A stretch of 64,000 bases of DNA from Echinarachnius parma (Eukaryota; Echinodermata; Echinoidea; Clypeasteroida; Echinarachniidae), in the NCBI GenBank assembly GCA_037951105.1, contig JBAMJV010001284.1, positions 220,001 through 284,000 of the forward strand. Direction: 5' to 3'. Positions 9,362-56,179 of this stretch are shown in pieces. A program made the position numbers and the translations under genes. The notes under the pieces were generated by a model. The model did no database searches. It was not told the origin of the DNA and worked only from the letters and a program-made list of their open reading frames with translations. Each line of letters opens with the position of its first letter. Positions within the stretch are counted from its first letter, which is position 1.

Positions 9362-12300
9362 CTAGCGTTCCTCCACAAATAGAGTTTCTTGGGGGCACAG
9401 GCCCAGCTGTTGGAGGTTTTGATGGCCGTCCAATGCAGTTAACTGTAGGCAAAAAGAGTGAAATCGAACCATGTAATAATTGAACTAGGAGTATTATTTT
9501 CAAGTGTAAAAATATTTTTGTACAAGCGCAATTATTTAAAATGATTGGTTCTAGAAATCCGTTCCATGATTTCCATCAACAACCATAGTCTTTGCAAAAA
9601 TATTTAATCTAAATGTTAATAATTAAGGTATTAAGTAATGCTACAATTATTCATGAGTCTAAAGAAGCAGACTAGTTCTATTTTCATGGGACATAATCAT
9701 CCCTAATGTTCCTGGACAATAGATGATAATTTTCTTCAGAATGATTTAGTAGTAGAGGGATGAGTTTTCAAATTCTGATAGCTTCAAATTTACATCTTTC
9801 TTTGGCCATGTGATGAGCACCTCGTAAGTGTCTGGATTGAACCCTTTGCATCATAGGAAGGCTTGACTCATGTATAGCTTACACTTTATTTCAACAAGAC
9901 TTTGTCAAATAACAATCTATTTTAGAAGTCAGAGAAAAAGCTTCAAACTTACATCTCTCTTTGGCCACGTGGTGAGCACCTTGTGGGTGTCTTTGTGGTA
10001 CCCCTTGGAACCTAGGAAGACTATCAGCATCTGGAGTTTCTCAGACGCCAGGAAGCGACGGGTGAGGGTCTCGCCGGTGGGGAGGCGCATCCTGAGGGTG
10101 CTGAGGGGCGCACCCGCGCCCTCGTCCGGTTCATCAGCCAGTTGTTGTTCAAGAGACAGCCGGATTGCCTGGAAAAAAATTGTAAAATAGTAACAACGTT
10201 GGAATATGCATCAGGAACACAAAATGGGATCTCTGATGGAATTGAATTTGGAAGATATTGAGGGGTAAGTTTGTATCGTTATCAGGCTCCTCACTCCCAG
10301 CAAGTTGCTGCTCCTCCCGTTGTTCCCTCATGATTCTTTCCTTCCTTCTTCCCCTCTCCATCTCCCTTCTTCCCCTCTTCATCTCCCTTCCTCAATCCTC
10401 TTCTCCTCCCTTTCCTCTTTTTTTTCTCCAAGGCCTCTTTCATTTCCTCTCCTCTTCTCCCAACTCATCCCCCATCCTCCTTTCTTATCTCCTCCTCTCA
10501 AAGCTTCATTCCTTTCGCTTACCTCTTCTTCAGCCTGCTTCATCTGTTCCTCCTGCTGCTCCTTCATGATCCTCTCCCATTCCTCCTCCTCTCCCTCCCT
10601 TAATCCCCCAACTCATCCCTTAATCCCCCAACTCATCCCTCCATCCTCCTCCCTTCTCTCCTCATCCCTCGTCTCCTCCTCTCAAAGCCTCATTCCTTTC
10701 GCTTACCTCTTCTTCAGCCTGCTTCATCTGTTCCTCCCGCTGCTCCTTCATGATTCTCTCCCCTACCTCCCCCTCTCCCTCCCTTAATCCCCAACTCATC
10801 CCCCTCCTCCTCCCTTATCTCCTCCTCTCAAAGCCTCATTCCTTTCGCTTACCTCTTCTTCAGCCTGCTTCATCTGTTCCTCCTGCTGCTCCTTCATGAT
10901 TCTCGCCCCTTCCTCCCGCTCCTGCCTCTCCTTCTCCTCTTGCTGAAAATGAAAAAAACAACAGGTGAATGGAGATTTGATAGTGATGGAAATTCCCCCA
11001 AAACAAAAAACTTTATTGACACATCAAAAATCTGTACGATCAGAACCCATCATTTACAAGTGCCCCATCCTTCATCCATCCGGTAACCCAAACCTAAATA
11101 ACTTGGACCCAGATACAATCCAATGGCTGCGGAAAATTGGGCGATGTTGCATAGAAGCTGTGCTGCCTCATACAAAGAAGAGCAGTTTAAGACCCATGTA
11201 TTAAAGACCCCTCAAGGGAGACAGAAAAGGTGGTCTTTACAGACAGGTTCATTGATTTACATGTGAAATGCTTCATAGGTAAACAAAGTTTAGTGGTCTT
11301 TACCGGCTGAAATTCAACTCACATTGATGATTCTATTACAACTCTGTAATCTTTTTTATTGAATAATTACACATTGAAATTCACTTTGTTATCCCTTCAT
11401 CTTACTTTACATCCAAATGTATTGTTTTGAAATTAATCCATGTGCAGTGAGGAACTTAATTTGATTTTCAAGTTCTGAATTACGGCATTACCTTTGCTCT
11501 GTCTGCTAATAATGATACATGGTAGGCCGCGTCCTGTTCTAGCCTCAGCATCTCGGACGCTCTCCTCTCATCCTAAAAAGTTAAGAAAAACGTTATGTTG
11601 AGATTATTAATAGAATATAGAAACTTATTTTTAATTCAACTTAAATTTAATTTTATGTTCATTTCCATTTAATCTGCAACCGGATATATAATTTACTATA
11701 TTGGGGCCTCATGCTTAACCCTAAAAAGACTGGGCTATTTTGAAACTTGAAAAAACTGGGGGGGGGGGGGGCTAAAAGGGCCCCCCCCCCCATAAGATCT
11801 CGGCAACCGAAACTCCGATCGACTCCAAATTTGGCAACGTGATAGATGTCCATAAATTCTACAATATTGCGTAGTTGAACATTTTTTTAAAATTAGAATA
11901 TGCTAATTAGAGCTAATTAATTATGCGAAAATTGTATTTTTTTGTAGTTTTCGTAGTTTTCTCGGCAATCGAAACTCCAATCAACTCCAAATTTGGCATG
12001 GTGATAGATGTCCATGAGCCATACAATATTGCATAGTTAAATTTTTTTTTCTAATTATAATATGCTAATTAGAGCTAATTAATTATGCGAAAATTGCATT
12101 TCTTATGTATTTCTTTGTTTGTTTTACTTATGTTTTTTATTGTTTTTTCAATGAAAATAATTATTGACCATTATTCAACCATTTTTAGCCCAAAATTAAA
12201 TGATTGCAGTGATTAGAATGAAAAATAATGAAGATTTTGTCTTTTCTAGGAACAAAATCAATTTCCATAGGATTTGTACACAAATCACAAAATTTAGCGA

Positions 12301-15300
12301 TTTTCGGCCCGACGTTCACTTACAAAAGGTCACGTGACTTTTGAACGGTATACCCGGTCGTCGCAAATTTGGTCTCAAAAGTTGCGCAAGACTTCAATGA
12401 AAAAACTCATGAAGTCGCGCGACAATATCTGCGCGCGTTGCGGAATTATCGCGAAAATAGAGGAGGGGGGGGGCTAAATCAGCCCCCCCCCCCAGTCTTT
12501 TTAGGGTTAAGCACATGCTGCTTCCCTCGAGGTCCCAGCAATGATTTATGAAATGTACATTGATTGTCTACTTCTGTTTTTAATTTGCCAAATAAACTTA
12601 ACTGAATTGTGTCCAATTACCCTGAAATTACTTTGACTTACCTCTTGAACAATATCGGCTGTTTTTTGTTCTGTGAAGACATCTACTGCATGTATTAGAC
12701 TGGTCATTAGTTCATCTAATGACACATTACCTGAAAAGAGGAAAGTATAGAACATATTGTATATGTAAAGCTAATTAATTAAACCCAGTTTTATCAAAAG
12801 AAAAGAAAAGTCAATGAGCATGCTGTTAATATATCACATAACTTGACAACTCTCAAATTATTAATTTCATTAAAGATCCTTTCCACCTTTTTGCATAGGT
12901 TTAACACCATTATGGCACTACATACCAAGTGCACGCTTTAAGCCGCAGTGAAAAAAACACAAGCGGATTTGGGTGGGGATCGAACCCTTGACTTCCCGAT
13001 TACTAGACAGGCTTCATAACCACTAAACCACCTAGATCTCCCAGTGGTTAGGGCCTTGTAAGGATGTATGAATGGGGGTGGGTTTCATGAACTTACCCTG
13101 AAGAACTGAGAAGACTTCTGTGTTTGAGCGCACTCTCATCACTAATAGCAACAAGGGGAACTTGTCCTGCTGGAGGTTCTTTAACGTGGCTGACGTCACA
13201 CTACCAAATATCCTAGTGCACTCTTGTAATAATCTGAGTAAAGGGATGCAAATATAAAATAAATAAATACATGAATAAGATGATTTATTAATGATTATTT
13301 GAACAGGAACGGATTCAATTTGTCCTGACTATGTTTTTTGTTTATGTGGCTGATGTCACACTTCCAAATATCCTAGTGCACACTTGTAATAATCTGAGAT
13401 ATAAATAAAAGTAATACTATCTAATTAAATATATAAGCGATGAAAACTGCTTATCTACTAAAATAATGCCTGTATAATAAAATGAGCGCATACAAATGTT
13501 TGTTCATATTATGCGCTATATAAATGTAATTTATTATTATAATTATTAGAGTGCCTACATTTGCGATACAAGCAAAATCTTCTTCAGAAGCAAACTGATC
13601 ACCGATGAAGATTCTGCTAGGATCAAGTATTTAGGCCCTCTACTGTTTTTCATTAAATATAAAAGTTTACAGAGTCATTTCTAAGTTAATAACAAGATTT
13701 GTTAATGTATTTTTTTTTAGTTAGGATGCTAGTATCCTTGTATATTACTGTAATAATTCTAAACAAAAGGCTAGACATTTGTAATTGTTCCATGGCTTAA
13801 TTCAGAGAATGATTCAACAAAGTTCTATTGCTTTCAAGGCTCTTCTTAGTAATAAACTGACCAGAAGACAACCAGTGGCAAAAAAACAACAACACTTCAA
13901 GTGTTGCTTACTTTACAATATTGCATAAGATTTAATTATGTTCTAACTTCATATTCTATTTTCCCCTTATAATGAATGTTATAACATATGGAAGTAGGAA
14001 TATGAACACAAAAATATGCAAGACGATAATTGCATACCCACATACTCATTTTGCTGTCTGTATTTTCCAATATTGAAAGAAAAGGATTAAACAAAAACCT
14101 GTTAAAAATGACGAGCCTCCACACTAAACTTTTTCTCTACTGGCCAGGTTGGGCAAGTGAAATCATAGCTTCAAGAATTGTACCTACCCGAACTGAAAAT
14201 TGACCTGCCCACTTACTTCTAGATAAGATTTAAAAGTAGGCAATCACATTTCTCCTGTAGTTGACCAATAATTTAGTTGCCCAATCGGGGCAACCAAACT
14301 AGGCCATATATGATATTTTACTAGCCCAACAACAATATTTACTTGCCCCGGGCAATACGGCAAGTGCTAGAGTCGAGCTCTGAATGATATTGCTCTTACC
14401 TTTCCCTATTTCTCGGTGAGCTTACGTCCCACGCCCAAGTGACAAAGTTCTGGCTGAGAAACGAGACTATACTATCTGCACACAGCAGTTGGCTACAGAA
14501 GACGTTGCTTTGTACGCTCTTGTCGTGATGGACATAGACGGCTAGTAATTTTCTCTGTCGAGGAAGAAAACAAAATATACAAAATATTATTAACAGTTCC
14601 TTAAACAGTGAGTTAATTTAACAGTGAGAAATGGTTGAAGGAATTTTTTTCTGAAACAAGATTTTATTATCTGAAAAAAACAACATACAATTAAAAAAAA
14701 CATGTATAGATTTATAAGAAAATATCTTTCCCCAAAAAGTATGTTTGCCCACATTTAGTAAAAAAAAAAAAAAAAAAGGATTCAATCTGTCACTGCTGTT
14801 AAGAGCACTCAAGCAAATCTTTGATTATCATGAGAAAAAAACTGAGTAACATACTGTTACTGTCAATAATTGTGCATTCAAGATCGTTTTTGATTTGTAG
14901 TCGAAATCAATGGGCAGTAGTCGTTAAAATCTGGCATTCATTTTCACTTGTTTTCACTTGGTTATTAAACAGTGATCCGTTTCTATAAAACTGCCACACG
15001 TCATTCAGAAGAATCTTACAATGATATATTGGTATATGATTCAAGTCTCAAATATCACTTTTGGAGAAACATTATAAAGTTTAATAATGGATCACTTCAG
15101 AAGAGCAGACTCACATCTTTGGCAGAAACGTTGAAGGCCTCTTTCATGGCTTCCTCCAGAGGGCCCATGTAGAAGCTGGGGTGGGTGTTACCGTAGCGCG
15201 CACCAAACTCTTGCGAGAAGTGTATTAATGACTCGGTTACATCCTCAAAATTGTCTGGTACTGCATGAAAGAAAAATATCAATATGAATTCATAACCATG

Positions 15301-18300
15301 ATACCAATAATACATGTTAGTGTAGTGATGGTGTGATCATGGTGGTGATGTTGATGATGAAAATTAAGAAGATGACGATGACGACGACAATGATTGCTTT
15401 ATTCAATTAAAATTGATTCTCACTGCTACCTTATAGCTCAGTAGGTGGAGTTGCAGAGTTCAGAAAAAATTAGTAACTAAAATAGAAACCATAAATACTA
15501 ATAACATAAAAGTTCAAATGTATGAAATCCAATGGAATACTTACATAACGCTGCAAATCTGTGCGAAGAGCTCTCCATTCCAAACATGGCGTTGTCCTCC
15601 AGATCCATGATGTCGTGTGCGTCTTCAAACTCATCACTGTCACTACTGTCATGATTCGCACTGGCCATATCCTAAAATGACATGAAAGACAATACTTGAA
15701 ATTAGCACAAGGCAGCCAAGTAAAACATAATCTGTAATGTCTTTCTTTGTTTGGAGCCAACACATTCAGGTTTTAACATGTCTTAACAGGTCTTTAATTC
15801 TTAGAATTTGAAATATCTTGTTTTTAGATGCCCTTCTGGGCCACAAGACAAAACAGTTAATTTCAAACATTGTCACTATCACAATGTAAAGCAAAACTTT
15901 TATTCTGGTTTTTCATGTCCAGTTATTGTATGTTGAAAATACATGGTCGTGGCTCATATTCTATGTAAGTTCATTAATACCATCATCATCTTCATAAGAC
16001 ATAACTATCAATCCATCTAAACTTTTTCACCTATCAGAATATTTAACTTTTTAGAATACCTACAAAATATTACAAACATTACGCTTCAATTTAATTTATG
16101 TAAGTTCATTAATACCATCATCATCTTCCTAAGACATAACTATCAATCCATCTAAACTTTTTCACCTATCGGAATATTCAACTTTTAGAATACCTACAAA
16201 ATATTACAAACATTACGCTTCAATTAAATTGAATACTGTAATTCATTGATTTGCTGCCTCAAGTTTGCAACATTTTCACTTCTCTGATAAAAAAGAAAGC
16301 AAAACAAAACAGGTTACTTATTTTCCAATATGTTTCACTGATTTTCAGGATAGATTGGAAAGTGCATTGGAATGTGCATTTTGTCCTCTCTGAGTGGAAA
16401 ATCAGTATACTCATTTCCAAATATTTAAACTGATTTTTATGGATAGAAAAAAACATCCGTGCATTTATTTTTACCTGTGACCTGTTATTGGTCTGCTGTT
16501 GTGCTTCTGGTATTCTCTTGAAGGAGAGGAAGTGGCGGGGGAAGTCTGTACCTGATGCTGCTATTGTGAGCTGAAAAAAATACAAAGAAAGGATGTGATA
16601 AAAAGTACTGCATAAAAGGTACACATCATAAGTACTATTTGGTTTTCAAGTGTCATCTGATGATGTAAAGAGGCATTATTTATATTTTAATATTTGTTTT
16701 TAACAATACAGTGGTCTGTGCGCACCCCCCCCCCCCCCCCCCCCCTGTTTAACGGCCTGTATTATTTTTGCAGCTTTCGTACTGAAGGATGTTTTCCAAA
16801 ATGTCTCTGAAATAATGTTAATTAATACATTTTACTTGTACCCCATCGTAATTATTTTGTGAATGTTTACTCTACTTACAGTGTCTGTATCGTCAGGCCA
16901 CCCCATCCACTCTTGGTGCCTTGGCTGGACATTGGTCAGTGCATAGATGCCCTGTTTGACGTCGAGGATGGTTTTGCAGCCCTCGTATCGCAGGTTGTAA
17001 ACTCCTCCATCGTCTGTGTGTGTGATCACCAGCTCTGTGTGTCTCATCAGACGATCTGAGAATGATGGTCTAAGTAAGTAAACAAATAAAACACAGAAAA
17101 AAAGGGATACTTTATTATTGTCATTTTTCTTTTAATTATATATTCCTTGTGAGTTAACTCTATCTTTGAATTGTACTCTAGTTTGTTCTTTCAATGCATT
17201 CATACCACAAGGAGCATGAGAGATGGCCTTCCAGGCTTCTTCAATATTACATGTTATAAAGTGCTCTGCCATCTATGTGTGATTACTAGCTCCATTTGTC
17301 TCATCAGACGGTCTGAGAATGATAGACTAGTCAGAATATGAAGCAGAATAACAAAGTGGAGATACGTTCAATAAATCAAGAGCATAAAAGATGGTCTCGC
17401 AGATGCAGCCCTCTTAATAAAGGTTATAAACTGCTCAATCATACACGTGCATGACCCATAATTATGTTTGTCTTGTCAGCTGGCCAGAAAATAATGGCCT
17501 GGTAAATCGGGATTGACTGTCCAGGCTGTTGCCACTACTACCAATCATTGCCTTATGCAAATGGGCAATATCAGGAGAGATAAAAGGGTGATTTTGGTGG
17601 TCTACAAAAGAAATCTTGGCTATTACAGTTTGATTGAAAGTGTGTCACATTACCCTATCCAAGAGAAACATAATACAGTTGAACCTAACCATCCACTTTT
17701 CCCCGCAGGGGATTACTTTTGGTGGCCACTATAGGCAGGTTAGCTGCTATAGATAAACTTGACTACCACGAGAAATTTGGTTGCTATAGACAGGTGGCCA
17801 CTAAGTCAGGTCTGACTGTTAAAAGCTATGGGCACTGTATCATTACCTTCCTAGTTATCTGATACTTCAGTTATCTTCCGCTTGACATGTTCAGCTTTCC
17901 TACGTGACTATGTTCCTACGCACATGTAGGCATGTTGAAGAGCTCGGATGTCAGTTGCACAGGAGAGGAAGTTCACCAATGTACACAGGTCTTCCTCTCA
18001 CGGTCGTTTCCTTCTTGTTGTTGTTTTCTCCAAACTATGTGAACCACGACGGTGTAATGGTAGATACACCTAGCCCGACATATTTCTATCTTCTAAAAGG
18101 ATTATAACTGCACAAATTCAATCAACTTACTCCTCCTCCTCTAAATTTATTAGGTGCTCTTGTTAAGGTTTGACTTGTTGCATCCTCTCTTGCAACTACT
18201 GTCGGTGAAACTGACTTGATACAAAATAATAAAAAATAATTGCCTAGACACTAGACACGTGGATCTGTCCAAAAACAGTTATACACACTTACTTTCTCCA

Positions 18301-21300
18301 TTCGACGTCCTTAGATAGGCTCTACTAGACAGGAGTATTATTAAAACCATTAAAGTTACAAAGTTTACGGAAACTTACTCCTCTCCATTAGGCGCTCGTG
18401 GACATGTTCTACTGGTTGATTCTTCTCCCGCAGCTATGGTCGGTACGCTCAGGGTTAAATTGACTTCGGACGGTAAGTGTAAACTCGAGAGGGATACCTA
18501 GGTAAGAGAGAAGAAAAAGACCTTGTCAGAACACCGGGGAAAAAATTAATATTTATCTTTTGTGGGCTGCTTTTCAAGCTCGCCTGCATGAAAGTAACAC
18601 TTTAAAATTTGTTTTGCATTGAACGCTATGCAAATTTATGGGGGCTCTTTTATGATTTTTTCGGGGGCTCTTTTTGGCATTTCGGGGGCGATTTTGCCCT
18701 GAGACCCCATGTATTTTTTTTCACTGAAGAACACATATATTCAAGATGTAAATTTAGGACAGCTTTCATTGACACTTTGGAGGTTCAATTGCCCAGAGTC
18801 CCCATGTATTTGAACGAAGTAAAAGCAGAGGTAATGCAAATAACTACTTGTTGCAACAGGTCAGATTCACACCATTAATTTCACAATGCCAAGAGACATC
18901 GCATCCCTAATAGGGCAACAAAACCTAGAAACCTACAAAAACTACAAAAACTAGATCTTATTTTGGGCAGGTGAAATTTTAATTCAAGGAAGTACTGTTC
19001 AACCTTGCCAAAAGGGGCAAGTGGTTGAATTAAGTAATGTAGCACCCTCTATCGTTGCAATATCATTCATGTATCATCTTCATAAATGGGAGCAAACTTC
19101 TGTTTACGGTGAAACCTGACTACAAAGGGCACCCAAGGAAACAGAAAAAAGTGGTCTTCATAAGCAGGTGGTTTTTAAAGACAGGTCAATTTACATGCAA
19201 ACTGCTTCATAGGGAGTGACAAAAGGTGGTCTTTGAAGACAGGTCCATTTACTTGCTTCAACTAGGTTATCTAGATTAGTGGGTTTTATAGGCAGGTGAT
19301 CACCATTTACATACAAACTGCTTCACAGGAGTCAAGAATAGTGGTCTTTGAAGACAGGTCCATTTACTTGCTTCAACTACATGTAGGGTATCTAGATTAG
19401 TGGGATTTATAAGCACTAGTAATCATCATCACCATTTACATGCAAACTGCTTTCTAGGGAATCAAGATAAGGCCATAAAAAATAAATTGTTGAATTGGCG
19501 TAACCCGCCCGTCCCTAAAAATACCGCCGACCCTAGATGTTTTTGCCGATTGCGATCAATATCGTTATGTATCGTTGTGTATATCGAAGCGAAAAAATTG
19601 CTATCGCCTGAGTATCGCGCTGCATTTGCGATCGATTTATTTGCTGCACTAAAAACCCGGAAGTGTTGCGATATCGCTTTTTCCCCGCGAGGCAATGAAG
19701 GCGCGAATACAGTACATGCAATGTACCGTACGAATACCCCGCGGTACCTATGCAGCGCATGCATGTACAATGTTTATGCCGCCGGCCAGGGCCAGCATGC
19801 ATATCTGCATATTAAAAAAAAGTATAAAAAAAAAAAAAAAAAATCCCGACCGACCTACCCTAATTTTTGGTTGCCCGTTACGCCAATCAAACAAATTTTT
19901 TTTTTTGGCCTAAGTGGTCTTTTTAAGCAGGTAGTCTTTAAAGACAGGTTCATTTACTTGCTCCATAGGGTATCTAGATTAGCTGGATTTATAAGCACTA
20001 GTAATCATCATCACCATTTACATGCAAACTGCTTTCTAGGGAGTCAAGATTAGTGGTCTTTAATGCTAAAGTAGGTTTGACTTTACGCAGGGCTCGACAC
20101 TCGCACTGGCCCGGGGCCAGTGAAATTGCACTTCGGGCCAGCAAAATTGCATAAAAGTCATATTTTGGTGGCCCGATCGGCCAAGCACATTTTCAACCCG
20201 ACATTGACAAAATTAGAAAAATCTTGTTTTCTTCCATGTCATGCTTCATCTATAATCACAGGTTTGATCAGCAAAGAGTGATATTTTAGTAAAAAGTTCA
20301 CTCATGAACTTAAATTTTCGGGCCAGTAAATCTTTCTTTCGGGCCACCAGAAAAGGGGAAGAAATTATTTAACTGGCCCAACCGCGCCACTGACAAAAAA
20401 GGTAAGTGTGAAGCCCTGCTTTACGTACCTCATCACCTGGTGATGGCGTGGGCTCGTTCCATCCTGTCAGGTACAGTTCTGCCTTGGGGACATTCAGTCG
20501 CTTTGACAGGAGATCTTTCAAGTGATCTGCAAAAAAACATGGACAAACAGAGAGATATTAAAAATACAGAATACAAAATTGGACCGTCCGACCATGGTTA
20601 TCTGGCCATGTTGGACTGGCACCCATGACCCATGAACACATAATTAAGTACGGTGATAAGTTTTCAAAATATAGAATTTGTCTGGAAACCTTTTTTTTTT
20701 ACAAACATGTTGGTGGAAAGAACAACAAAAACTTTTAAAAAATCCTTTCATTTATAAGAATATCATTTTTTGGTGTCAGTTTCCTATACCCTTCGACCTT
20801 GGTTATCCAGCACTAAAACATAATCTTACAAATGTTAGTGGCCGGATACCTGAATGTGGTGGCCCTAAACGAAGAAAAACACATTTGGTTGCCCATTTGA
20901 GCAACTATAATTCGGCACTGATGGAATTTTGGTGGCCCTAAGCTAATTTTTAGTGGCCCAGGGCCAGCAGGCCTGTGTTAATTTTTAGCACTGACTTACC
21001 GACTGCATGTTCATCTGTCAGTGAGATGTTGATAACCTCTCCCCTGTATGTTATGTGGAAGTGGACGAAGCGCAGACGTTGCCTCGGCACGGAAAAGGCT
21101 GATATCGACGGTCCGGCATTGTCCGAGAATAGTGGTCCAGAATTGCTCGAGAATGTCGGCTGCACTGTGGAGTCCCCAACAGGCCTTACAGTGGGTCTAT
21201 AAAAAGGGAGAGTGAGATATTTAACACTCAGTACCATGTAATGAAGAATACACTACATGGAGTACAGTAATTTAAGGTGTTATAATGGATTTGTAAATCT

Positions 21301-24300
21301 GATGTGCGGTGCCATCTTGCGAACACCTTGTGCACAGTGCATAATACACACTGGCTGTGTTATGCAATGCACACAAATTAGCCTAGTTCAAGATGGTAAT
21401 CTGCATTGTAGCATGCACCCCCACGCTTGACAAATAATGTGCCCATTGAACTGTATTGCTGAGTACAACTGAAAGCATGAATCATGTGACATGCTCTCAG
21501 AACTGACGCAAAATTATATCCCTAACATAAAACTAATCATATTCAACCTAAATGTTGTTGTCAACAAACAGCAGTACGTTGGAATGCAGGTGGCCAAATT
21601 CAATAGTTCGGCCAAGTTCCCCTACCACAGGCTTGCCCTGAAAGGTGTCCGAGTGCCAAACGCCACCAGAAATTGAATTTGGCCACTAGAAACTCTTGTA
21701 ATGACCACCAACAAATTAATATCTACAAAGCACAAGCCTATGGTGGGAGTCTGGGAGCCTATCTGGGGCCCGTTGTGCAGAAAGAGTTGCAATGGATTGG
21801 TAAGGTTGTGATTAATTGCAAAGTCAGAACATGTGACTAAATGCACAAATCTGATTGGTTTAAAATATGCCTTTTTTCTGACTCACAATTAATTGCAACT
21901 TTGAAATTGATTCCGACTCTTTCTGCAACGGGGCCTTCCAATGTATGTGTCATTTTGACCACCTCCAAAGAAAGGTCAAGGGAGAGGTTTATGTTCGCTT
22001 AGTCTATATACTCAGTTGGTCTACAACTCAGTTGGTCTACTACCTGATGCATTTAATCTCCAATTTCCCCAGCTCCAAACACGATCCTTAACACAAAACC
22101 TAACCCTAACCCTAATCCACACCCCTAACCCTAATCATAATCCCTAATTATAATCATAAGCCCCCAAATGTATAATTTTCTAGTAGACCAAATGGCTGTA
22201 GACCAATCGGCAAGTTACAGAGGGAGATACACTGTACCTGTGGATATAATGTACCTATAATATACAATACCTACCCTATTGGTTCTATAGTCGGTTCTTG
22301 AAATGAACCCACTCTGCCCGTGCCACCCTCATCTTGATTCGAGTCTCCCTGGGCTCCCAACACCGAATTGATGGCCCCCGTTAGATTCCAGTCATTCTGC
22401 TCCAGGTGGGCTAGGCACTCCTCAAAGTTTTCAATTCCTGTGCATGCCTGAAAAGTAAGTCATAAGTGAAAACATTTGAATTGAAGTCTGAAGAGGAGTA
22501 TTTAATGTGGAGTAAATGGGTCATTCCATGGGGTTGGGGCAAAAAATATGACGATGTCCATGTAACGGTGGTATGAGATCTTCTACTACACATGGAAGAT
22601 GTAATCATCTGGTGAAGATTTTTATGCGATGAATATTATATAGTAGTGCCCTACCAGAATCGTTCCTGTTTCAGTTGCTTTTCTTCAAAATCTTTGCTTA
22701 ATACACATTTCTCTTTGTACCACCGTTACATGGACATCATACTCATATAACATTACATAAATTTTGTGTCCATAATATTGATTCACCATGAAGCTTGAGT
22801 ACTTCTGAAGAGAGTTGGCTATGCTTTGTATGCAAAACTCAATTTGAGCAAACATTGTTACAGTTGATAGGAGACACAGTTTCTCACTTCTGGTATGTCA
22901 CAAAAATTGCCCCAACCCCGTGGAATGACCCAAATGGTCCTTACCTGACCATTTACCTGCAGGTAGATGTGACACATGTTGGAAAGTAGAGTTGGTGTGG
23001 TTTTGTGAATATGGGCCCTGATACCTACAAAATCCATAATCAGTCAGACCTAATGGCCCGTATTCACAAAGGAGGTTTGTACAAACCCCGGTTCAAACCG
23101 CGGTTTACATCTATGGAATGCCAATTGTAAACTGATGGAGAGGGAATGTGTACCATCAACATTGTTAACAAGTAAGGAATTTACATTCTCTCTCCATCAG
23201 TTTACAATTGGCATTCCATAGATGTAAACCGCGGTTTGAACCGGGGTTTGTACAAACCTCCTTTGTGAATACGGGCCTTTGAGTTCAGTGTTCACACAGG
23301 TTTGGCCTTTAGGAATAGTTGGGGTCTATCTTCGGCTGAAGTAAGAAGATATTATATTTAGGTTCAGGAGAATCAGGACCCACTGCATCTTGCGCATGGA
23401 AAGTTACAATATAGTTCTACATTTTCTGACGAATCTGTCATTACATTGATAATAAGACGTATCACAGTGACCAGTGTACTTAGCAAACTTTAACATGCAT
23501 TTCAATTGCAGCGTGAAGTTGAGCACTAATGAATGCATTATTAATTTAATACGCGCACTGTTGTGAAGCTTTTTAGGAAGATTGTGCAATCTGAATCTGA
23601 CTTCGAAGGATAGATTGATGAATTTAATTTGCAGATTCTTCCTCCTCCATATCTTTGTTCTGACACCAAACTTGTGATTTAAGAAAAAGACCACAAAAAG
23701 ATAGTATTTCTTCAGAAATAGATTTTCATTTTTGTTTGCTAATTTTAGATGATTGCTCTTTGGTATGAAGTTGGTAATTATGTGTTGCCGTCTTCTCATG
23801 CCGATGGCTGAATACGCACAAAATATCAATACTCGTCCATACACACTTTCATTATCAAACGTACAACTCTGTCAAAAGTAAAACTGTACATATGTAAACT
23901 AACAACTGCATACATGATAGTGATACATACATGTAGACTGTAGTTAGGTTTGATTTCATTTTTGGGTAATCCTGCACTTTAGGGTGATATATTATTTTTG
24001 GTTGCTAACTTCAATTTTCATACTGCCCATAGACCCATAGCCACTAATCTAACCATAGCCAATAAAAGCCACTAAATCGGACCATAGCCCCCAAATCTGA
24101 CATATAGCCACTAAATCTGACCTATAGCCACCAAATCTAATAATATATAGCCACCAAATTTAGGGTTAGGGTTAGGGTTGAAATTAGCAACCAAAAATAA
24201 TATATCCCCCTGGCCTAAAGTGGGCTATATCGTGGTTTAGTCACCTGGGGACTCCAATTTTTACAGCACCAAACTTACGGCAATTTCGATGGATTTCTCG

Positions 24301-27060: not shown

Positions 27061-27145
27061 TGTTGTTGATGTCGTAATACTGAGCATGCGCTCTGCATCA
27101 TTAAATGGCCCTTATTATTATGCACAGCTGGTGGTGACGTCATAA
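27061..27145 (-). promoter_or_regulatory. FAF1 promoter-proximal region with CRE and NRF1-like sites
   Basis: Immediately upstream of the FAF1 ATG. A palindromic CRE TGACGTCA lies at 27135-27142 and an NRF1-like GAGCATGCGCTC at about 27082-27093. The start codon itself is in an AATGGCGGC context resembling YY1 sites that often overlap start regions of housekeeping genes. No TATA box stands out. Sites are read by eye; the transcription start is not known. Confidence 0.5.
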
Positions 27146-28394
27146 TAATGGTCTTGGTTACCTGGCTCAATCCTAAGCTATTCATGTTTATTTTTCATAA
27201 TTATGAATATATAATGAAGTATCTAAATCGCTAAAAGTATAGAATATGAATCTGCACATTTCCTTTACATTCTGTGCGTGCGAAACGTAACAGAAAGGAA
27301 CGCAAAAATAGCTTCATATACTGAGGCTCTGAGCTCAAATGTGACTTGTTCGGACGTGAAATAAAATTCGGATGCACAGTGCAGTACACAGCTAAACGGA
27401 GTTAGTTAGTATCCGCCCACTTATTTTGATCTTCCCCGTTGTTTTGTTTATGTATTTGATTGTAATAATGATGCGTCATATAGATGTATGACAATTTATC
27501 AATAAAAAAAGTTCTCTAGCGGGCAACGTGTCACGACTTGCAGCTCATAATCAGGGAAGTTCCATGTCTGTGGACTTTAAATTGCCCTGGATATATCAAA
27601 ATATGATGTTTGTCTCAGTATAGTCTAGAGATATCAGTAGCAGCAGGTCGGAAGCTAGCCGGTTAAAAACATCACAATTCATTTGTCTGGCGAAGGATAT
27701 ACTTAGACATTATTTATAGTTTTTTTGTGATTTATATTGAGTTATTAATAGTTGGTGGCCAAAAGGAGAGTATCGTCAAACTTCCCTTGGAGCATTTTGG
27801 AAGAGAGCGATCGACCAGTAATTTTATATATAACATTCAAGTGCGATGTAACATTATGTGCCCAGTGAACATAATTAATTTTAGGTTTATACAATTCAAG
27901 CGAGCGACATGGAACCACCATTGTAGCTAGTGGTGAACATTATAAATAGGCCCATCAATCTATATGCACATTTTAAAACTCCCCGTGGAGCATTTTGGAT
28001 GACAACGTGCGCGAGTGAATACCACCGTTAATTAGTGCAGGTGCCTAGGTGATTGTTCAGTATATTCATCAGAATAACGATGCTGATTCACTGAAGACAA
28101 CGAAAGGATAAGACTGACCGTGCCCATATACCGCCTTTAATCTGTCAAGGTACGTATACGATGTTTTTCCTGACAACTATGTCATTAATACTAGGCCTAT
28201 AAAGTATGTACTAACAAAAAGAAGACTATTGAAATAATAGTGATTGATGAAGCCCTATATACCCCGGCCTTCCGCCACTGGTTAATGAATGTAATTATAT
28301 AAATCAACAAATTTAATATCCTTCTCAATAAACATATTGTAGTTTTTATGTAACGTAAACAAAATACTCATGATTATTATTGTGCTTAGATAAC

Positions 28395-37878: not shown

Positions 37879-40800
37879 ATGGCAGACGGGGATATAGGAG
37901 ATGATGTAATCAACAGGATCACGAAGGCAGCTGCGAATGCAGACTCTGCTACCCTACGAGACCTTCTGGATGGAACACCACCTGGAACAGTGAACAGGAC
38001 AAACAAGTATGGACGAACAGCCTTGCAGGTATTTAACTGCTTCAAATGTAATTTCGAATTTAATAATTATTTGTAGGCCTACGGGCGCCGAAATTTGGGG
38101 AAGATGGAGTAGACAAAAATCATCCTTCTCAAATGCCCCCAATCCATGTGCAAAGTTTATTATTATTTTGTTTAACTGACAAACAAAGCTAGTTCGTGCT
38201 AAAGGTAGCTCTGGTATAGTATTTTAAAATAAAAATACACATTATTAATTTATCATCATCATCATCATCATCATTCATCATCATCATCATTATTTATCAT
38301 CATCATTTATCATCCTTTATCATCATCATCATCATCATCATCGTCATCATCATCACCATTATCATCACCATCATCATCATCATCATCATCGTCATCATCA
38401 TCGTCATCATCGTCATCATCGACATCATCATCATCATCAGTATAGTTGTCATATCCGTATAAAGGAAAGGGCAATGTGATAACCTTTTATTTTTCTTCCT
38501 AGGTGATGCACAGCACGTGTGCGACCACCGCCGAGATCCTTCTCAACCACGGAGCCGATGTCAACGTGCGCGATATTCACGTCGGCAGGACTCCCCTGCA
38601 CGACATCGCGGAGAGCGGTATCCAGGCCACGCTCGAGCTCCTACTACGGAACGGCGCCGACCCCGTCGCAAGGGACAACTGGGGGAACACACCGGCTCAT
38701 CTGGCCGCTGAGAACGGTGGTCCAACTCGCGTCCAGGTAAAGAACAACACACTAAATTAAAACCTGTCCATAAAGACCACGTAAGGGAGACATAAAAGTA
38801 TAAGTAGTCCTTATAAGTAGGTGGTCTTCTAGACAGGTCATTCGCATGCAAACTGGTTCCAGGGGAGTCAAGATTAGTGGTCTTTATATATAGGTGGTCT
38901 TTATATACAGGTATTCGCTATAGCAGGTTTGAAAATAGTTTTTCGGATGAAAATACGTGTTTTACTGTTGGAGGTGTTGTGGCACGATCTGATAAGCGTT
39001 TTACTTCTAATCACGGAAGCCGACTTCGAAACAAATCGATGCCCGGGCATTTATGTCATTCAGGAAGGCATTATTTTAATCCACATTGCTGATTGCTACC
39101 CAGGAGTTAGAACAAAACAATCTCGATCTGGAGGGGTCCTTTAATATTATGACGTCATACTATCCCCTCCATCACGAAATGGTGAGTAAAACAACAAACG
39201 AGGAGAAGGACTGATTTAAAGGCTACCTAGGAGTATGAACGTGATAAATGGGTAATTGGTCGGGTTTTCATTAGCCTGTATCACCCTATATAATAATACT
39301 AATATATACTCAGTTTGGGCTAGTATGCTCCCAGGAAATTGAGATGGTGCACAGGGCGATTGTGTGGGTTAGAACTATATACCTGTTGACCAAGGCTAAT
39401 GATTATGCGCCTCTGAATAGTGTACCTAGATACATGGTGATCTATCATGATAATTCTTTATATGGTTATTATACTTACTATGTTGATGTAGCCAGAAATA
39501 GCCAACTCCAAATAGGGGGTTATTTTTAAAAACTTCCTACTACGATTGGGAGTGGAGCCAGTCGTAGTCTCAGTGTAACAACTAATATTGAAACAGAGAC
39601 TCATTTGTTCAGTATAGTATGAATGTGGAATAATATACGATTCAAAATATTTGTTGTGTTATGTCTGCATAATATTTGCACTGCAGAAGCTATCTAATTA
39701 CTTCGAAATTTGTTATTATGTGCTTATTCCGCCTAACCACTAATAATGCCCCAATAACCACAATTATCAAACAAAAGGCACATGCACACAATAATTATAT
39801 CACTTCTACTTCCCATTTCATCAGTGGCGTAGCAACGGGAGGAGGACACGGGGATACGCCCCAATAATTAAACAAAAACAAAAGAGTAACAGTTCTAAGA
39901 TTAAAAACAAATAATAGTTTGCCCCCAATAACTCACGTGCCTATACCCCAATCAGTCGGACCAAGCTACGCCACTGCTTTGTTATCGATATCTGGAACTG
40001 TATATACCCTATTTAGTACATGTCCTGACATTGTGTTCCCGTTAAAAATGTTAAATATCCAATTGTATACCAAATGCAATATGGACAGGCAGACATCAAA
40101 CTGTCTGTTTAGTTTCCGTTTTAATTTTGTTTGTTATTATATAAAATAGGGAAAACACCAACATGACCAAATGCAACATGACGGATAGAACGTTAGGAAA
40201 ATGCTCATAAGAAGAATCTAGATCTGTTTTTTTTTTTAAATTTTGTTTGTATTTGTTTATTCTAAGCTCTACTGTTTTACAGATACAACAGATGTTAATT
40301 TTTTTTAAAGATTTGAACTTTTTGAACTTAATTTCCGCCCACAAGACACAGGTCGAAGCACGCTCACGCTGTAGGAATGGTTATGCAAACACACAATATC
40401 ATAAACCCCAAAAAATGTCGCAGATTTTCATTTTTTTTTGGGGGGGGGGGGGGCGGGGTGGGGCACAGTTCGAAGTGACCTCACGCTGTAGAAAATCAGA
40501 TTATATAAACATGTACATTAGTATAAATGAAAGGAAATGATGCAGCCTTTTTAGGGGGCGGGTTAATCCCCTTCCCCTGTCTCAATGTAAGTTTTGACCA
40601 GGTATAGAATACAGAGATTACTTTTATATTTACTTATGATTTTATTACTACTATATTATAATTTGGTAAGACGAAATCTTAAAAAAAATTCTTGGTTATG
40701 GAATTATGAGTAGCTGCTTAGCCGTAGGAGGCACTTACATGTATTTGTGTTATGTTTAGAATCACATGTATTCACATTAGAACCCCATCAGAATCATATC

Positions 40801-42480
40801 ATTGTATGCTCCCCTGGGAGTTGATAAGGTGCACAGGATAAGTGTGCGGGTTTGAACTGTACCTGATGACCAAGGGTAATAATGCGCCTCTGAATAGGGC
40901 ACCTAGATACTTGGCGCTCTATAAATGCGATATTATTATTATTATTATTATATCATTAAAGGGATAGTTGACTTTTGGTAGAGAGGGCGCTAGACTACTT
41001 ATTTTTTTGTGAGGTAATGAAAAACTGAGTGTAAAATTTGAAAGAGCATAATATTTAAATAATAAAATCATCTTTGTTTGATCAAAATCGGTTCAGAGAC
41101 GGCTGAAATATCCATAAATATAACATTTTATAATAAAGCTGGGGCCCCAGGTTTATGAGAGAATTTTGAACCAGCCGTTAACAATTCAAAATAATGCCTC
41201 CTCTTTTCAAAAAGTTACAAAATAGATATTTAAATAGTTGTTGGTTATTTCTCTATCTAATCACTATTTCAACAAAACATCACATGCCCAATATTTTATT
41301 CAAAATGGTTGAAACCAACGAGTGTTTAGAGAGCGCCCTCTTACGTTTTAACGGCTCTTTTTGAATGATAACATGATCTTTACTACGTCATTTGTAATTT
41401 TGTGTTCCTTTCTAGTTATAACTATTAGTTTGTAATGTAATGATGCAGGTTTTGGTTACTAAAATTCAGTTTCACCAAAACTGTACTCTCCTTACCAGAC
41501 GTCAACTATCCCTTTAACAAACGTAACCTTCAACCTGATACCGTAAATGTCCAGGTGAATTAACGTAATTTTCACAACCAATTGTTTCTTGTTATAATTA
41601 TGTATGTTTGTTTGTTTGCATGTAGGTTCTTCAAACGTTAAGCCGTGTATCGACACTCACCGAGCGCAATCACGCCGGAGATAACCTGCTGGACATCGCG
41701 ACGCGAAAGGGTCATCAAGAAATCATCAGGTGGCTGGATACCTTCTGTAAGTTGATCAAAAGACAAACAGAATGTTACATTGAAATGTTTAAATGATTTA
41801 AAGTGATAGTACAGTCTTGGTCAAACATAATTTTTGTAACTAAAACTTGTAAGTCATCATTAAAACCTATCAGTAATAATTCACTGATGATCGAATGGTA
41901 GTAAACAAATATACACGGTTAAGTTACAGGACTATTTTCTTTCAAAATGCAGCCGTTAACACTAGAGGGCGCCCTTCCATACACCAAGTTCCAATACATT
42001 TTCTATCAAAAATGCGAATGTGATGTTTGGTTAAAAAAATCATTCAATAGAGAGATCATCCAAAACTATGTTAAAAAAGCATTTTTTTAATATTTAAAAA
42101 AATGTGCAGGATTATAAAAATAATTTCTTTAATTATTGAATAAAAGTTGGTCCCCAACCAATTTTATTCCAATCTGATATATAAATGGATATTTCAGTTG
42201 GTTCTGAACCGATTAAATGTCATATATTCAGAAAACTCGCATCGAAATTCAAACTTTCTAACCACATTAAAACAAAATAATTAAAATATGAATTATATCA
42301 TACGAATCGTTTGTGTTTCATTTCTTCACCAACTTTACCCATGCAGTTCGACAGCCACAGGCCCTAGTGTTCATCGCTCGTCGCGTCATTAGACTTCGGG
42401 TATCCGCCAAGCAAATCTTGGAGTTGCGGATGTTGATACCTGAACACCTTATCCGGTATCTCAGAGACGAGACGACGTGA
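37879..42480 (+). CDS. INK4/CDKN2-like ankyrin protein with C-terminal SOCS-box-like domain
   Basis: Four exons: 37879-38028, 38503-38736, 41626-41746, 42347-42480 (639 nt, 212 aa), all with GT-AG borders and matching phases (0, 0, 1). Residues 1-50 end in NRTNKYGRTALQ; exon 2 opens VMHSTCATTAEILLNHGADV, the same border and the same short second ankyrin repeat as CDKN2A-D. Then GRTPLHDIAESG, a full repeat with NGADPVARDNWGNTPAHLAA, and exon 3 ERNHAGDNLLDIATRKGHQEI, like p18INK4c NHKGDTACDLARLYG. The HD pair and upstream D align with p16 H83-D84 and D74, CDK-contacting residues. INK4 proteins bind CDK4/6 and block G1 progression. Exon 4 reads QALVFIARRVIRL then ILELRMLIPEHLIRYL, resembling a BC box and Cul5 box as in ASB proteins, which would recruit Elongin B/C-Cullin5. 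Vertebrate INK4 proteins (about 130-170 aa) end before this. A canonical BC-box Cys is Ala here. A CTTAG at 37856-37860 may be an acceptor from an untranslated first exon. The ASB family is the main alternative. Confidence 0.88.
38254..38440. repeat. ATC/TCA trinucleotide microsatellite
   Basis: Nearly pure ATC units with a few interruptions in intron 1 of the INK4-like gene, just before exon 2. Confidence 0.95.
39822..39976. mobile_element. CAGTGGCGTAGC-end short element, copy 2
   Basis: Ends CAGTGGCGTAGCAACGG and AGCTACGCCACTG are inverted. Shorter than the other copies and without a long G run. Confidence 0.7.
40808..40952. mobile_element. SINE-like repeat with ATT tail
   Basis: Ends GGCGCTCTATAAATGCGAT followed by ATT units, a tail form also seen near 13503-13545 and 58095-58120. 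An earlier diverged copy is at 39330-39440. The 5' part has no clear polymerase III boxes, so the SINE assignment is tentative. Confidence 0.5.
40956..41517. mobile_element. TTAA-flanked element, family G copy 1
   Basis: Starts TTAAAGGGATAGTTGACTTT and ends GTCAACTATCCCTTTAA. Interior includes GATCAAAATCGGTTCAGA and GAACCAGCCGTTA. A second copy is at 56180-56736 and an older fragment seems to lie near 41800-42240. Sits in intron 2 of the INK4-like gene. Confidence 0.85.
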
Positions 42481-42962
42481 GTTGATTCAACACGGACACT
42501 GATCTTATTTTTGTTTGTTTTATATTCAGTAAACGAGGAAAGGGACTAAGGTTGTCAATGCCGGATCGCCTAATCCGTTTCCTAGAAAAGTGAATCCGAC
42601 ATCAACCCCGGCATCAACTATACGGTATTCGTCGCACCAGTATTCGAATTGCAGCGGATAATACCGAACAGACTTATCCGTTATCTTTGTGTTGAATAAG
42701 CATGCATGCCGCTACCACTCACTGAACTTATGATGTCTACTTATCGTCGAGAACGTACTAGAGATGCAGCGAATAGTTGGCTACTGGTCTCAGATAACCG
42801 CTTTTCATACGAGAGATGACTACAGTAAAAATGCATGTACTTTTATTTTCGTATTAATTAATTAATTATTAATTAGAAATGTTGGAAAAGAATGGGTGAA
42901 AATAAAATGACTTCACGATACTAGGAGTTATTGGCCATTCTTGATACTGTATCTTGATTATA

Positions 42963-43968
42963 CAGAGTGAGTCAGAAAAAATGTCCCATCTTTTGAAAGT
43001 TGTCTTGTTTGAAGTATGAACATTTAATCATGGGTTTTATTATATGTCTTGGTAAAGTTATCGTCCCCGCTTATTTCGGTACCCTTTGCATTTGAATCTC
43101 TGCACGCATGACTGAACATCAGACAATCTTTAGAACACTGCAAAATCACACTTGCGCCAAGTGGCTGGGTGAGGAATAAAACAAATTGTGAAAGAATTTA
43201 TAACTTTTACTGTCGGGACACCGAACATTGAAATAACGGCGGCATAACCCTTGCAAAACTTACACTCTGAGTTATTGCATACTCGGTGATCAAAAATTAT
43301 CTCTGTTGCGGGGTGAACTGAGGACGAACCATAATTCCAGTACTTGTCCTACTCAAACAGGGCTCAACATAATTAACTGCTGCCAAATCAGGCAAGCCCT
43401 TTGGTGGCAAGTACAACAAAAGCACATATATGCATTGTAAATTGTCATTGTTAACCTACAAAAGACATAGACGAGATTCATTTTTATTGTTATTGTACCT
43501 ACGTATTGAGATAGCACATTGGATTTATGTGCACTTGATGATGGTGGTGGTGGTGGTGGTGAATGTGTTAGGGGAAAGATTGTCAAGGAATTACCGCTTA
43601 AATATTCAGCGATCTTGTTAAAAATCAATGCTTAATCAGAAAGGGGGAAATGTTAACACTGCATTATGAAACAATTTTTACTGTGCGTGTGTGTGTGTGG
43701 GTGTGTGTTTGTGTTTCTCTCTGTCTGACTGTCTTTGTTCAAAACACTGTTTTATTCCTCACCCATCCACTTGGCGCAAGTGAGTTTTTGCAGTCTTTTA
43801 AAGATTGTCTTGTGTTCAGTCATGCGTGCAGAGATTCAAATGAAAAGGGTACCGAAATATACTGGGAGAATAACTCTACCAAGACATATCATAAAACTCA
43901 TGATTAAATGTTAATACTTCAAACAAGACAACTTTTAAAAGATGGGACATTTTTTCTGACTCACTCTG
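42963..43968. mobile_element. TA-flanked palindromic element, mariner/Tc1-like non-autonomous
   Basis: Starts CAGAGTGAGTCAGAAAAAAT and ends with the complement, flanked by TA at 42961-42962 and 43969-43970. The arms, about 250 bases each, match closely, including GTTGTCTTGTTTGAAGTAT. The middle has GGT and GTGT microsatellites. No transposase frame. TA duplication fits Tc1/mariner-type transposition. Confidence 0.85.
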
Positions 43969-44924
43969 TACAAGGAATTATCGAATTTAGATTTTTTTTA
44001 CTACGTAATTATAGCCCAACAGACTTGATTAATCTCCTATATATTTTGTATCTAATATTATTATATCAAAACTAGAATAAACTGTTGTACAGGCCTACTC
44101 ATGATGGCGTTATTCATTGCACTTTCTCTTGGACTTGGTATAAGCAAAAAATATATATATATGTTGCGATGTCAATGTCCCAAATATCGATGTGTTTCCT
44201 ATAAAACATTACCACTGTGCTTTGTTTCTTGCTAGCTAAATATCATACTCACTGTATAATATGCGACTGTATTAATAATAGTGATTAATGAGGATGTACA
44301 CTTACATTCTGTGTTTGAATAAACACGTTTTTTCTAATTTAAATTCACCCACAACTGTCACGCGTGGCCAGCCAAGCGTCATTTGTAAATATTGATGAAA
44401 AGTATAATTGCCCTCCAATGTTTTGTACTGGATGAACCTTGACCTAAGCACAAATTAAAATTTGTATGAAATGTTAATCAAATTTAGCAATGTATATCTT
44501 TTTGAATTGAAAAGGGACATTGTACTTACCTTTCTCATATAAAATACTAGATGGTTGGTTGGCTCTCATTAAAAAAAAAACATAACCTTTTTTACCAGTG
44601 CCGAATATTCACGTATTATTCTGAATATTCTCTCATTCTTTTATTTGGATAACAGTTGATTGATGTTACAAATACAAGAAATAAATTTAATTCGGTTCTA
44701 TCAGCCTAACATATTAATCCTCCCCAGGACGTTGCAGATAACACTCATTGTAATAATTTAAACGGTATACTTGCGTGGTTAAACCAAATCATGTGACAAG
44801 CAAATTTTGAGAATCGGCTGAATATATCCTCTGTTTAAATGTCATTATTTCTCCCAAATATATCAGCTAATTTGTGTCCTAATACAGGGGGTGGATTCTG
44901 AAAACGATTTTAAGCTAAAATTTA

Positions 44925-52997: not shown

Positions 52998-53524
52998 AGA
53001 AGACAAAGCAAGAAGGAATAAGACATTTGAGGGAGAAGAGAGATATGGAGGAAAATGAAGTTGGCGAAGAGAAGAGAACTATAACGACAACAAATAGGAA
53101 GAATAACGACAGAGAATGTTGTAAGGAGAAATAGGAAATCGAAAATAAGGTTAAAGAACAAGCACCAAACATCACATTAACAAAGGTAAGAACAGATTAT
53201 AAGACATCGAAAATACAAAGAAGATCGAAACAGAGAGGAAAATTGCGGAGAAGAAGGAATAGAGAAAAGTGGAAAATTTAACGAGAAGGAAAGTATCAAA
53301 CATCGAATTATCGAATTATCGAGAGGGTCATCACAAGACATTAAGAAAAATAAGAAAATAATATAATAAAGATGAAACATTGTCTAGTAGTGATGTCGAA
53401 GAAGGAGGGTTCCATGATTTTAGAGTGGCCCAAATGTTGCGCAGCAAGTGTCATTATTTTCTGAGTGTAACTATGTCGTATAAGACTACTATATCGCCTG
53501 ATCATATGGTAATCCAGAAGATGG

Positions 53525-53614
53525 GAGTACTTGTATTGTGTTGATGATGGTGGTGATGTTGATGATGATGATGTTGATGTCGATGATGATATTGATGATG
53601 ATGATAATGATGAA

Positions 53615-53670
<56 letters not shown>

Positions 53671-53682
53671 GACGATGATGTC

Positions 53683-53751
<69 letters not shown>

Positions 53752-53752
53752 A

Positions 53753-53821
<69 letters not shown>

Positions 53822-53885
53822 CTGATGATGATGATGATGTTGATGGTGATGATGATAGTGATGGTGATGAGGAGAAGGAGGTGGA
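53525..53885. repeat. GAT trinucleotide microsatellite
   Basis: More than a hundred GAT units with a few variants. Every long frame across it (poly-Asp, poly-Met, poly-His, poly-Ile, poly-Ser) is an artefact of the repeat. Confidence 0.97.
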
Positions 53886-55080
53886 GAAGGATTATGATTA
53901 TGACAATGCGAAAGAAATAGGAATGACAATAGATAGGATGACACAATTGATAACATAAAGAAGCAAAAGAGAAAAAAAAAGTTGGCGATGACAATTAATA
54001 ATGATGAAAAGGAATATACGACCAAAAATATTCTCCTCTTGCTAACATAAACCTTGACATGCATTCTTACAGGAGCGATTATCAGTACATGCGCGCCGAT
54101 TGGTTCGCGGATCTATCCAATCAGACCCCTCGTATGTATTAGACAGAGTGAGTGAGTGCGTGCGTGCGTGTCTGTGGGAGTGCGTGTGCGTGTGCGTGCG
54201 TGTGTGTGTTTGTTCTTTATAGTTACCCCTCGTACCCAATGCTCGCACCCTCGCTAGCTAGCTCTCAGCGGCAAGTGAATCAATTGAGTGACTAATTGTT
54301 CGATAAACGCTCGCAGCGATCTTTCACACGAAGACGATGACATTGCAGACCTCTCCGTCGTGTGATGTCGCCCTAATCTTTCGGAGGACTTTTCAACCAC
54401 ACAACCATCATCGCCGGATAGACACGTTGGAGAAGTCGGATAACAAAAAAAAATAGGTGGCGAATTTCAGAGTCCCCTCTCGGCCACTAATGAACAGGGA
54501 CCAATCCGCAGCCAAGATACTCACTAGCTATATACTTGAGGAAACTTAGTTGGTGGACCACTTTGTAGCAAACATCCAGAGAGTGGTGACCTACTCTGGA
54601 AGCTGATTTATCATTAGCCTACTCCACTTTCTTCATTTCTTGGACATTTTGAACCCGGCAGTTGGTTTACAATTGTGGTAGATGAAATTGACAATGAGTC
54701 GACATATTCACTTGATTATTCTTCTCTTCGAAGTTTTTAATTAGGGTTTTGACTTATTAACGTTTCCATCCATGCTTTTCGTAAAGCGAGTATCTATTTG
54801 AGCTAAACACATTTGAAACTGGTTCTGATTGACAGTATACAGACACCCGAGGGAGAACAATACCAAAATAAGCTAAAACAATTCATTTTCAGATGCTGGA
54901 CTATAACATTCATCTAATACGATAAGTACTCTAATGATTTGAGGGTTGTTTTTCAGTGAGAACCATCTGAACTTTCTCGACTTCTTTTCTTAAAGAGCGC
55001 TGCGTCAAGTACGTGATCGTTCAATCGTGGCTCGCTTCGGATTCTACCGCTCCCCGTCGTTGTACCGCGAGACGAAGCCG

Positions 55081-55546
55081 ATGATGAACCACCAGGACGT
55101 GGACCACATCGACATGCGGACGCTGTCGCTGCTCCGCGGCCCGCTCACGGAGAAGGGCGCACGGAAACCCAAGTGCGCTCGCTGCCGCAACCACGGCGTC
55201 ATCTCCTGGTTGAAGGGGCATAAGCGCCACTGCCGCTTCCGCGACTGTCGCTGTGCCAAGTGTAATCTGATCGCTGAGCGACAGCGGGTGATGGCGGCCC
55301 AGGTCGCCTTGAAGCGCCAACAAGCTGCCGAAGACGCCATCATCCTGGGCCTCCGAGCCTGCTCCCCGAACGGACCCTATCCTTACCTCCCTCCGGGACC
55401 CATCTTCGGCGCCAACCCGTCGACCTCGCCGACACCGGGCGGCGGGAGGTGTGGCGAGAATGACGATGACGACGACGACGAGGAAGACGCAGCTCTGGCG
55501 GCTAGTGACGATGCCATGGACGATGTCGACATGCCACTTTCTCCAG
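55081..55546 (+). CDS. DM-domain transcription factor, DMRT3/DMRT93B type, first recognised coding exon (partial)
   Basis: From the first in-frame ATG (55081) the exon encodes 155 codons plus one base and ends CCAG before GTATGT. The DM domain begins [20 protein letters not shown] and continues [11 protein letters not shown] and [19 protein letters not shown]: all zinc-binding Cys/His and the recognition helix are present. DM proteins bind the DNA minor groove and control sexual and neural cell fates. SWLKGHKR with CRF-DC is as in vertebrate DMRT3; AEDAI followed by LPPGPIFG recalls insect DMRT93B. Then comes an acidic run ([10 protein letters not shown]) and MPLSPG. The frame is open upstream to a TAA at 54991, so an earlier exon or a non-ATG start (55027) cannot be excluded. 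No later exon or DMA domain was found up to 64000; the gene must continue elsewhere or in exons I missed. Confidence 0.9.
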
Positions 55547-56179
55547 GTATGTAATCAAGCACTAACTTTTTACAACAAAATCTTATTAAATTCGTGTTTC
55601 CCCTTGAAAGAACATGGCAAAGACGATTTTTAGAAATACTGTTGTGGTTAAAAAAAAAAAAAAAAAATCACCTGGCATAATCACCGACAAACGAGATGCT
55701 TTGAAAGAAACACTTTATGGGCTCTTTCCTAGAGAAATGTTTGTCGTATGCGTTGATATTTCCATATTTATGTTTATCGAACATAGATAAGTATAATATT
55801 TCTAAAATTGGTATGTTCTATAAAATGAAAAAAAATGTAGACTATCACTTAAATTGTACTGTAATTATGTAAAACACTTTTATCTATATAGCTCGCCAAA
55901 TTTATATAATTGATATTATCCAAGAAAGGTGAATCGATCAAAAATAAATTTAGGGAGTAAAAGTAATGTTCGGATGGTCTTATACTTTTCATAAAGATTT
56001 GAGACTAATTATTTAGAATACTAAATCATCACTGCATGAATGATATAATGTATTTGCACATTTGTTTCAATTATTGTGTACGTTACACGAGATATTTAAT
56101 TAATGAATATTGCCACTAAAAAAGTATAAAATAATATATTTCTTAAATCATGTATAATTTAAACAATTGAATGACTGAC

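Follow-up and report, generated by a model that had tools for sequence, protein, structure and literature searches.

Can an INK4-type inhibitor of cyclin-dependent kinases (CDKs) end in a SOCS-type box, and what would such a protein do? The question is raised by a four-exon gene in a 64,000-nucleotide stretch of the genome of the echinoid Echinarachnius parma (contig JBAMJV010001284.1, positions 220,001 to 284,000 of the forward strand), hereafter the window. An earlier reading of the letters alone, the sequence-only reading, had described it as an INK4 protein fused to a SOCS-box-like C-terminus. At the level of sequence, there is good support for a CDKN2 (INK4) orthologue whose last exon encodes a divergent SOCS/VHL-type box. 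An INK4-like invertebrate gene has been described before (PMC6737965); among the titles and abstracts listed by a literature search that covered few subscription papers, none reports a SOCS box in an INK4 protein.

Gene structure and INK4 identity

The gene is predicted on the plus strand, where four exons join in frame through GT-AG introns of phases 0, 0 and 1 to encode 212 amino acids. The outer ends (37879 and 42480) and the last junction (41746-42347) given in the sequence-only reading proved correct. The exons are as follows.

37879..38028, plus strand: exon 1, with the start codon, ankyrin repeat 1 and a phase-0 donor; its last residues, GRTALQ, open repeat 2
38503..38736, plus strand: exon 2, beginning with VM and holding most of ankyrin repeats 2-4
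41626..41746, plus strand: exon 3, completing repeat 4 and holding repeat 5; phase-1 donor
42347..42480, plus strand: exon 4, with the SOCS-like tail and the stop codon

Exon 1 is exactly 150 nucleotides long, its last residues being GRTALQ; codon 50, where it stops, is also the last codon of human CDKN2A exon 1-alpha. Repeat 2 is one residue shorter than a generic repeat, as it is in INK4 proteins, and repeat 5 reads RNHAGD..LDIA..GHQEII, with RNHKGDTACDLA as its p18 counterpart.

The same gene is present on a second haplotype. We call the window haplotype A; contig C5849, which is colinear with it over ~50 kb, is haplotype B and carries the same four exons at 21788-27735, in the same order and in frame, encoding 217 amino acids. 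Beyond the box, described below, the protein continues for 5 codons in A and 10 in B. When exon-4 DNA was used as a query against the genome, matches were obtained at the window and at C5849 only, and at no third place. Intron 3 measures 600 bp in the window (41747-42346) versus 2485 bp in C5849, with donor and acceptor kept in both.

The introns and flanks also hold repetitive DNA. A 562-bp element in intron 2 (40956-41517) has 30-nucleotide inverted ends that are 87% complementary, and an element of ~1 kb just 3' of the gene (42958-43973) has 226-nucleotide inverted ends that are 92% complementary; both are absent from the C5849 haplotype. Long ATC-type microsatellites were seen by eye at 38245-38440, inside intron 1, and at 53500-53900.

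The gapless CDKN2 alignment around repeat 2 that had been proposed holds up: 37 of 82 residues are identical to human p16 over residues 41-122, in the same numbering, and moving the register either way by 1 to 12 residues reduces the identities to 1-10. A profile built from p15, p16, p18 and p19 gave 104 bits for haplotype A and 108 for B, whereas no segment of four ankyrin arrays from this genome scored above 80.6, and blastp of A scored 76.6 bits for p19, 70.1 for p18 and 51.6 for ASB8. In a tree of 15 hand-chosen rows the window protein and the human INK4s share one branch with support of 98/95; an earlier tree of 20 rows had given this grouping 94/91 (not starred). A PDB search with the whole protein returned mainly designed ankyrin proteins and did not separate INK4 from ASB, and the N-terminal 74 amino acids did no better. 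Alignment, phylogeny, number of repeats and locus all bear out the INK4 type; a query with p18 repeats 2-4 alone went against it (see below). The INK4 identity of this gene, with its five INK4-type ankyrin repeats, is strongly supported, and no other CDKN2 orthologue was found in the genome.

The last exon and its box

Exon 4 encodes a tail in which the following segments can be placed.

42355..42462, plus strand: SOCS/VHL-type box (PQAL...RYL), placed by profile scoring and exon anatomy
42361..42390, plus strand: BC-box-like segment ALVFIARRVI, with Ala at the Cys position and Ala at the S/T/P position
42436..42462, plus strand: Cul2-box-like segment IPEHLIRYL (IPEPLIRYL in haplotype B), a consensus match

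The tail was scored with a full-length profile of 18 boxes and a local profile of 15 boxes from the echinoid's own genome, with 2629 open reading frame (ORF) ends from this genome's DNA as background. Under full-length scoring haplotype A obtained 16.8 bits, a value equalled by none of 3000 shuffles, and ranked first among the 2629 ORF ends, the next scoring 3.2; haplotype B obtained 15.1 bits, reached by 1 shuffle in 3000.

The BC box consensus, (S,T,P)LXXX(C,S,A)XXXphi, allows Ala at the Cys position (PMC4878042), and the window segment fits it apart from the Ala at its first position. One of the 15 own-genome boxes departs from the strict pattern at the same position and three more fail it; the BC box of human ASB8 likewise has Ala. 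The Cul2 motif phiPxxphixxxphi (PMC4878042) is present in both haplotypes and is non-specific, being found in 14 of the 15 own-genome SOCS boxes. The BC pattern (Ala allowed) and the Cul2 pattern occurred together in 176 of 200000 shuffles and in 6 ORF ends out of 2629, one of them the window's.

The anatomy of the exon agrees with that of SOCS exons. Fourteen own-genome boxes were compared, eight of which lie in short open frames (45-104 amino acids) and were taken as separate short exons; the best acceptor of all eight is in phase 1, 8-14 nucleotides before the conserved Leu (14 in six of them), with the short/long split (104 versus 123 amino acids) set after the frames had been seen and the acceptors picked by score. 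The remaining six, in frames of 123-361 amino acids, have acceptor-like sites in another phase or farther away (L001: 39 nucleotides, phase 0) and were taken as internal to exons. The box of the window and of C5849 has a phase-1 acceptor 17 nucleotides before the conserved Leu. These comparisons support exon 4 as a divergent, sub-threshold SOCS/VHL-type box.

Gene neighbourhood

Two genes flank the INK4 orthologue in the window.

9947..22453, minus strand: FAF1 orthologue, 8 segments matched by human FAF1, with a C-terminal UBX domain
54994..55554, plus strand: DM-domain ORF, probably dmrt93B

The same DM-domain gene probably includes a DMA exon that lies 15.5 kb past the DM domain, beyond the window, at C1283:290839-290946. 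DM matches in the genome number five and, as one is the C5849 copy, represent four distinct genes. Two of the three others were read by eye, one being DMRTA-like and one DMRT2-like, so that the window gene is probably dmrt93B.

Human FAF1 and CDKN2C are arranged head to head. The association is also seen elsewhere: FAF1 and CDKN2C lie within one 0.5-Mb region in sheep (PMC11192971), faf1 adjoins dmrt5 in fish (PMC7689362), and on a scaffold of Saccoglossus kowalevskii genes related to cdkn2 and faf lie close to dmrt4/5 or dmrt93B (PMC6737965). For the INK4 identity of the window gene, its place between FAF1 and a DM-domain gene is the evidence that weighs most.

Elsewhere in the window, a TRIM-like ORF (1176-3125, minus strand) encodes 649 amino acids in a single frame, with RING and B-box zinc fingers.

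Proposed function and comparison with known systems

We judge the chances somewhat better than even that this INK4 orthologue, with its SOCS/VHL-type last exon, acts as a substrate receptor. A partner, either CDK4/6 by descent or one that has since changed, would be held by the ankyrin repeats, the tail would bind Elongin B/C together with Cul2 or Cul5, and the partner, or the protein itself, would be ubiquitinated. A kinase exon on contig C23 is 59% identical to CDK6 and contains the KARD motif, whose arginine we take to be CDK6 Arg31, and D74 of p16 is kept in the window protein. In p16, Asp84 pairs with CDK6 Arg31 (PMC9426627).

A number of results count against a working kinase receptor. 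G23, G55, H83, D84 and G89 are the least tolerant residues of p16 (PMC12002794); haplotype A keeps H83, D84 and G89 (three of the five) and haplotype B only H83 and G89, with Glu at position 84, while R87, F90 and D92 are altered in the window protein. The INK4 assignment itself is challenged by p18 repeats 2-4 (77 amino acids), which as a query matched generic ankyrin arrays first (maximum 52 bits); the 159 matches listed for it, with 150 of 4560 candidates scored, do not include window exon 2. The tail alone obtained 13.1 bits (E 0.12) with Pfam SOCS_box over 37 of 39 profile positions, the cut-off being 23.5. The likeness of exon 4 to a SOCS box exceeds chance in the profile and shuffle tests and falls short of Pfam's cut-off. 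A Pfam scan of the whole protein gave no SOCS match, and phmmer with the tail against the PDB matched no SOCS protein. Local scoring was weaker than full-length scoring, the score of A being reached by 48 of 20000 shuffles and that of B by 434, with A third among the 2629 ORF ends, and both haplotypes lie below all 18 leave-one-out reference boxes (24.6 to 59.1 bits), 15 of which had been selected because they exceed the Pfam threshold. An AlphaFold model of exon 4 alone consists of two helices with a predicted template modelling score (pTM) of 0.38 and no PDB fold match. The Cul5 motif LPxP (PMC4812663) is absent, both haplotypes reading MLIP. The choice between Cul2 and Cul5 is not decided by the sequence, because 7 of the 15 own-genome boxes also lack LPxP and 14 fit the Cul2 motif.

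The comparison of the two haplotypes adds to these objections. Over 206 codons the gene shows 20 replacement and 6 silent changes, with the nonsynonymous proportion (pN) about equal to the synonymous one (pS), and exon 4 shows 4 replacement and 0 silent changes. FAF1 has 1 replacement and 16 silent changes over 302 codons (7 of its 8 matched segments; Fisher p 5e-6 for replacement/silent counts, gene versus FAF1), and the DM ORF 0 and 5 over 158 codons. Because differences amount to 26 in 625 aligned coding bases versus 215 in 6734 flanking bases, substitution shows no sign of constraint. The indel count favours a coding gene: none separates the haplotypes before 42462, where 9.8 would be expected from 15.7 events per kb in the flanks (Poisson P 5e-5), and the three events counted as coding all fall at 42462-42464, the end of the box. 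The reading frame stays intact as the protein changes rapidly, and the gene may be under relaxed or diversifying selection. A plain pseudogene, as pN about equal to pS might suggest, was set aside given that no indel occurs before 42462, and is retained only within the reading discussed next.

Many of these points would also fit a helical tail that has decayed or resembles a box by coincidence and does not bind Elongin, in a gene under relaxed constraint. A box below threshold and below every reference box, without a SOCS match by phmmer or a fold match in the PDB, would be expected of it, as would pN about equal to pS and the purely replacement changes of exon 4. It has less to say about a frame kept without an indel up to 42462, about the first place of A among ORF ends under full-length scoring, or about an intron whose phase and position match those of short SOCS exons, and we hold it to be unlikely but deserving of serious weight. 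The same INK4 and box sequence would equally serve self-turnover, in which the box, by binding Elongin and a cullin, destabilises the inhibitor itself and the kinase is only bound; this is a special case of the substrate-receptor reading, the odds of the two overlap, and taken by itself it too is a minority prospect to be reckoned with. Exon 4 might also go unused if transcripts read through past exon 3 and stopped after FCKLIKRQTECYIEMFK, leaving a plain five-repeat INK4 protein. Neither haplotype has a stop that would close this read-through frame earlier, but donor and acceptor are likewise kept in both, despite the different lengths of intron 3, and the resemblance to a box would have to be chance; we consider this improbable.

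An ordinary ankyrin-SOCS (ASB) protein with a chance likeness to INK4 would have ASB8 as its nearest candidate. The genome's own ASB8 (L046 on C9441 and L047 on C10622, two haplotypes) has GRTAIQ and a SOCS box and, by eye, a second repeat one residue short, as in INK4 repeat 2, and the BC box of human ASB8 shares the Ala. This reading is opposed by the lower blastp score of ASB8 than of p19 (51.6 versus 76.6 bits), by a locus between FAF1 and a DM-domain gene that is the CDKN2 locus, and by approximately unbiased (AU) tests, in which grouping the window protein with ASB8 without INK4 was mildly rejected (p 0.036), the corresponding value with ASB8 and ASB9 being 0.017. We regard it as very improbable.

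Returning to the substrate-receptor reading, should the tail bring in a cullin ligase, this relative of INK4 would be a naturally occurring degrader of kinases, destroying its partner instead of only blocking it. A search for the same exon in other deuterostomes could then test where this family of tumour suppressors, lost in many cancers, came from. INK4 may have had an ASB8-like origin; a single group of the window protein, INK4 and ASB8 was not rejected by the AU test (p 0.063, with a log-likelihood lower by 5.4) and is absent from the free tree. It seems to us rather doubtful that the ancestral deuterostome CDKN2 was a cullin-ligase receptor that degraded cyclin D-dependent kinases through a SOCS/VHL-type exon, and that vertebrates lost the exon and kept the blocking ankyrin part. 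A second question is raised by the fast change of this protein between haplotypes beside two strictly conserved neighbours.

Four known systems invite comparison. FEM1 is an ankyrin-repeat protein. It is among the VHL-box substrate receptors of Cul2 (PMC4878042), which have a BC-like box and the Cul2 consensus in common with the window protein; the consensus is also present in 14 of the 15 own-genome SOCS boxes, so this likeness does not fix the cullin. ASB proteins, with ASB8 nearest in box features, share the order of ankyrin repeats followed by a C-terminal box, the separate phase-1 box exon (eight own-genome boxes) and, in human ASB8, the Ala of the BC box; the window repeats, however, group with INK4 and not with ASB8 or ASB9, and its box is weaker than all 18 reference boxes. 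The cdkn2-related gene of S. kowalevskii has the same neighbourhood as the window gene, and the available part of its description is silent on a SOCS box (PMC6737965).

The fourth system is the vertebrate INK4 proteins (CDKN2A-D), of which p18 (CDKN2C) and p19 (CDKN2D) are nearest. Five repeats (in p18 and p19), the GRTALQ/VM junction, the short repeat 2 and the FAF1 and DM-domain neighbours are common to both, while several CDK-contact residues are altered in the window protein. Vertebrate CDKN2C is not known to have an intron in repeat 4, which in the window gene is split by one. Human INK4 proteins stop shortly past their repeats, whereas the window gene adds a SOCS-like exon.

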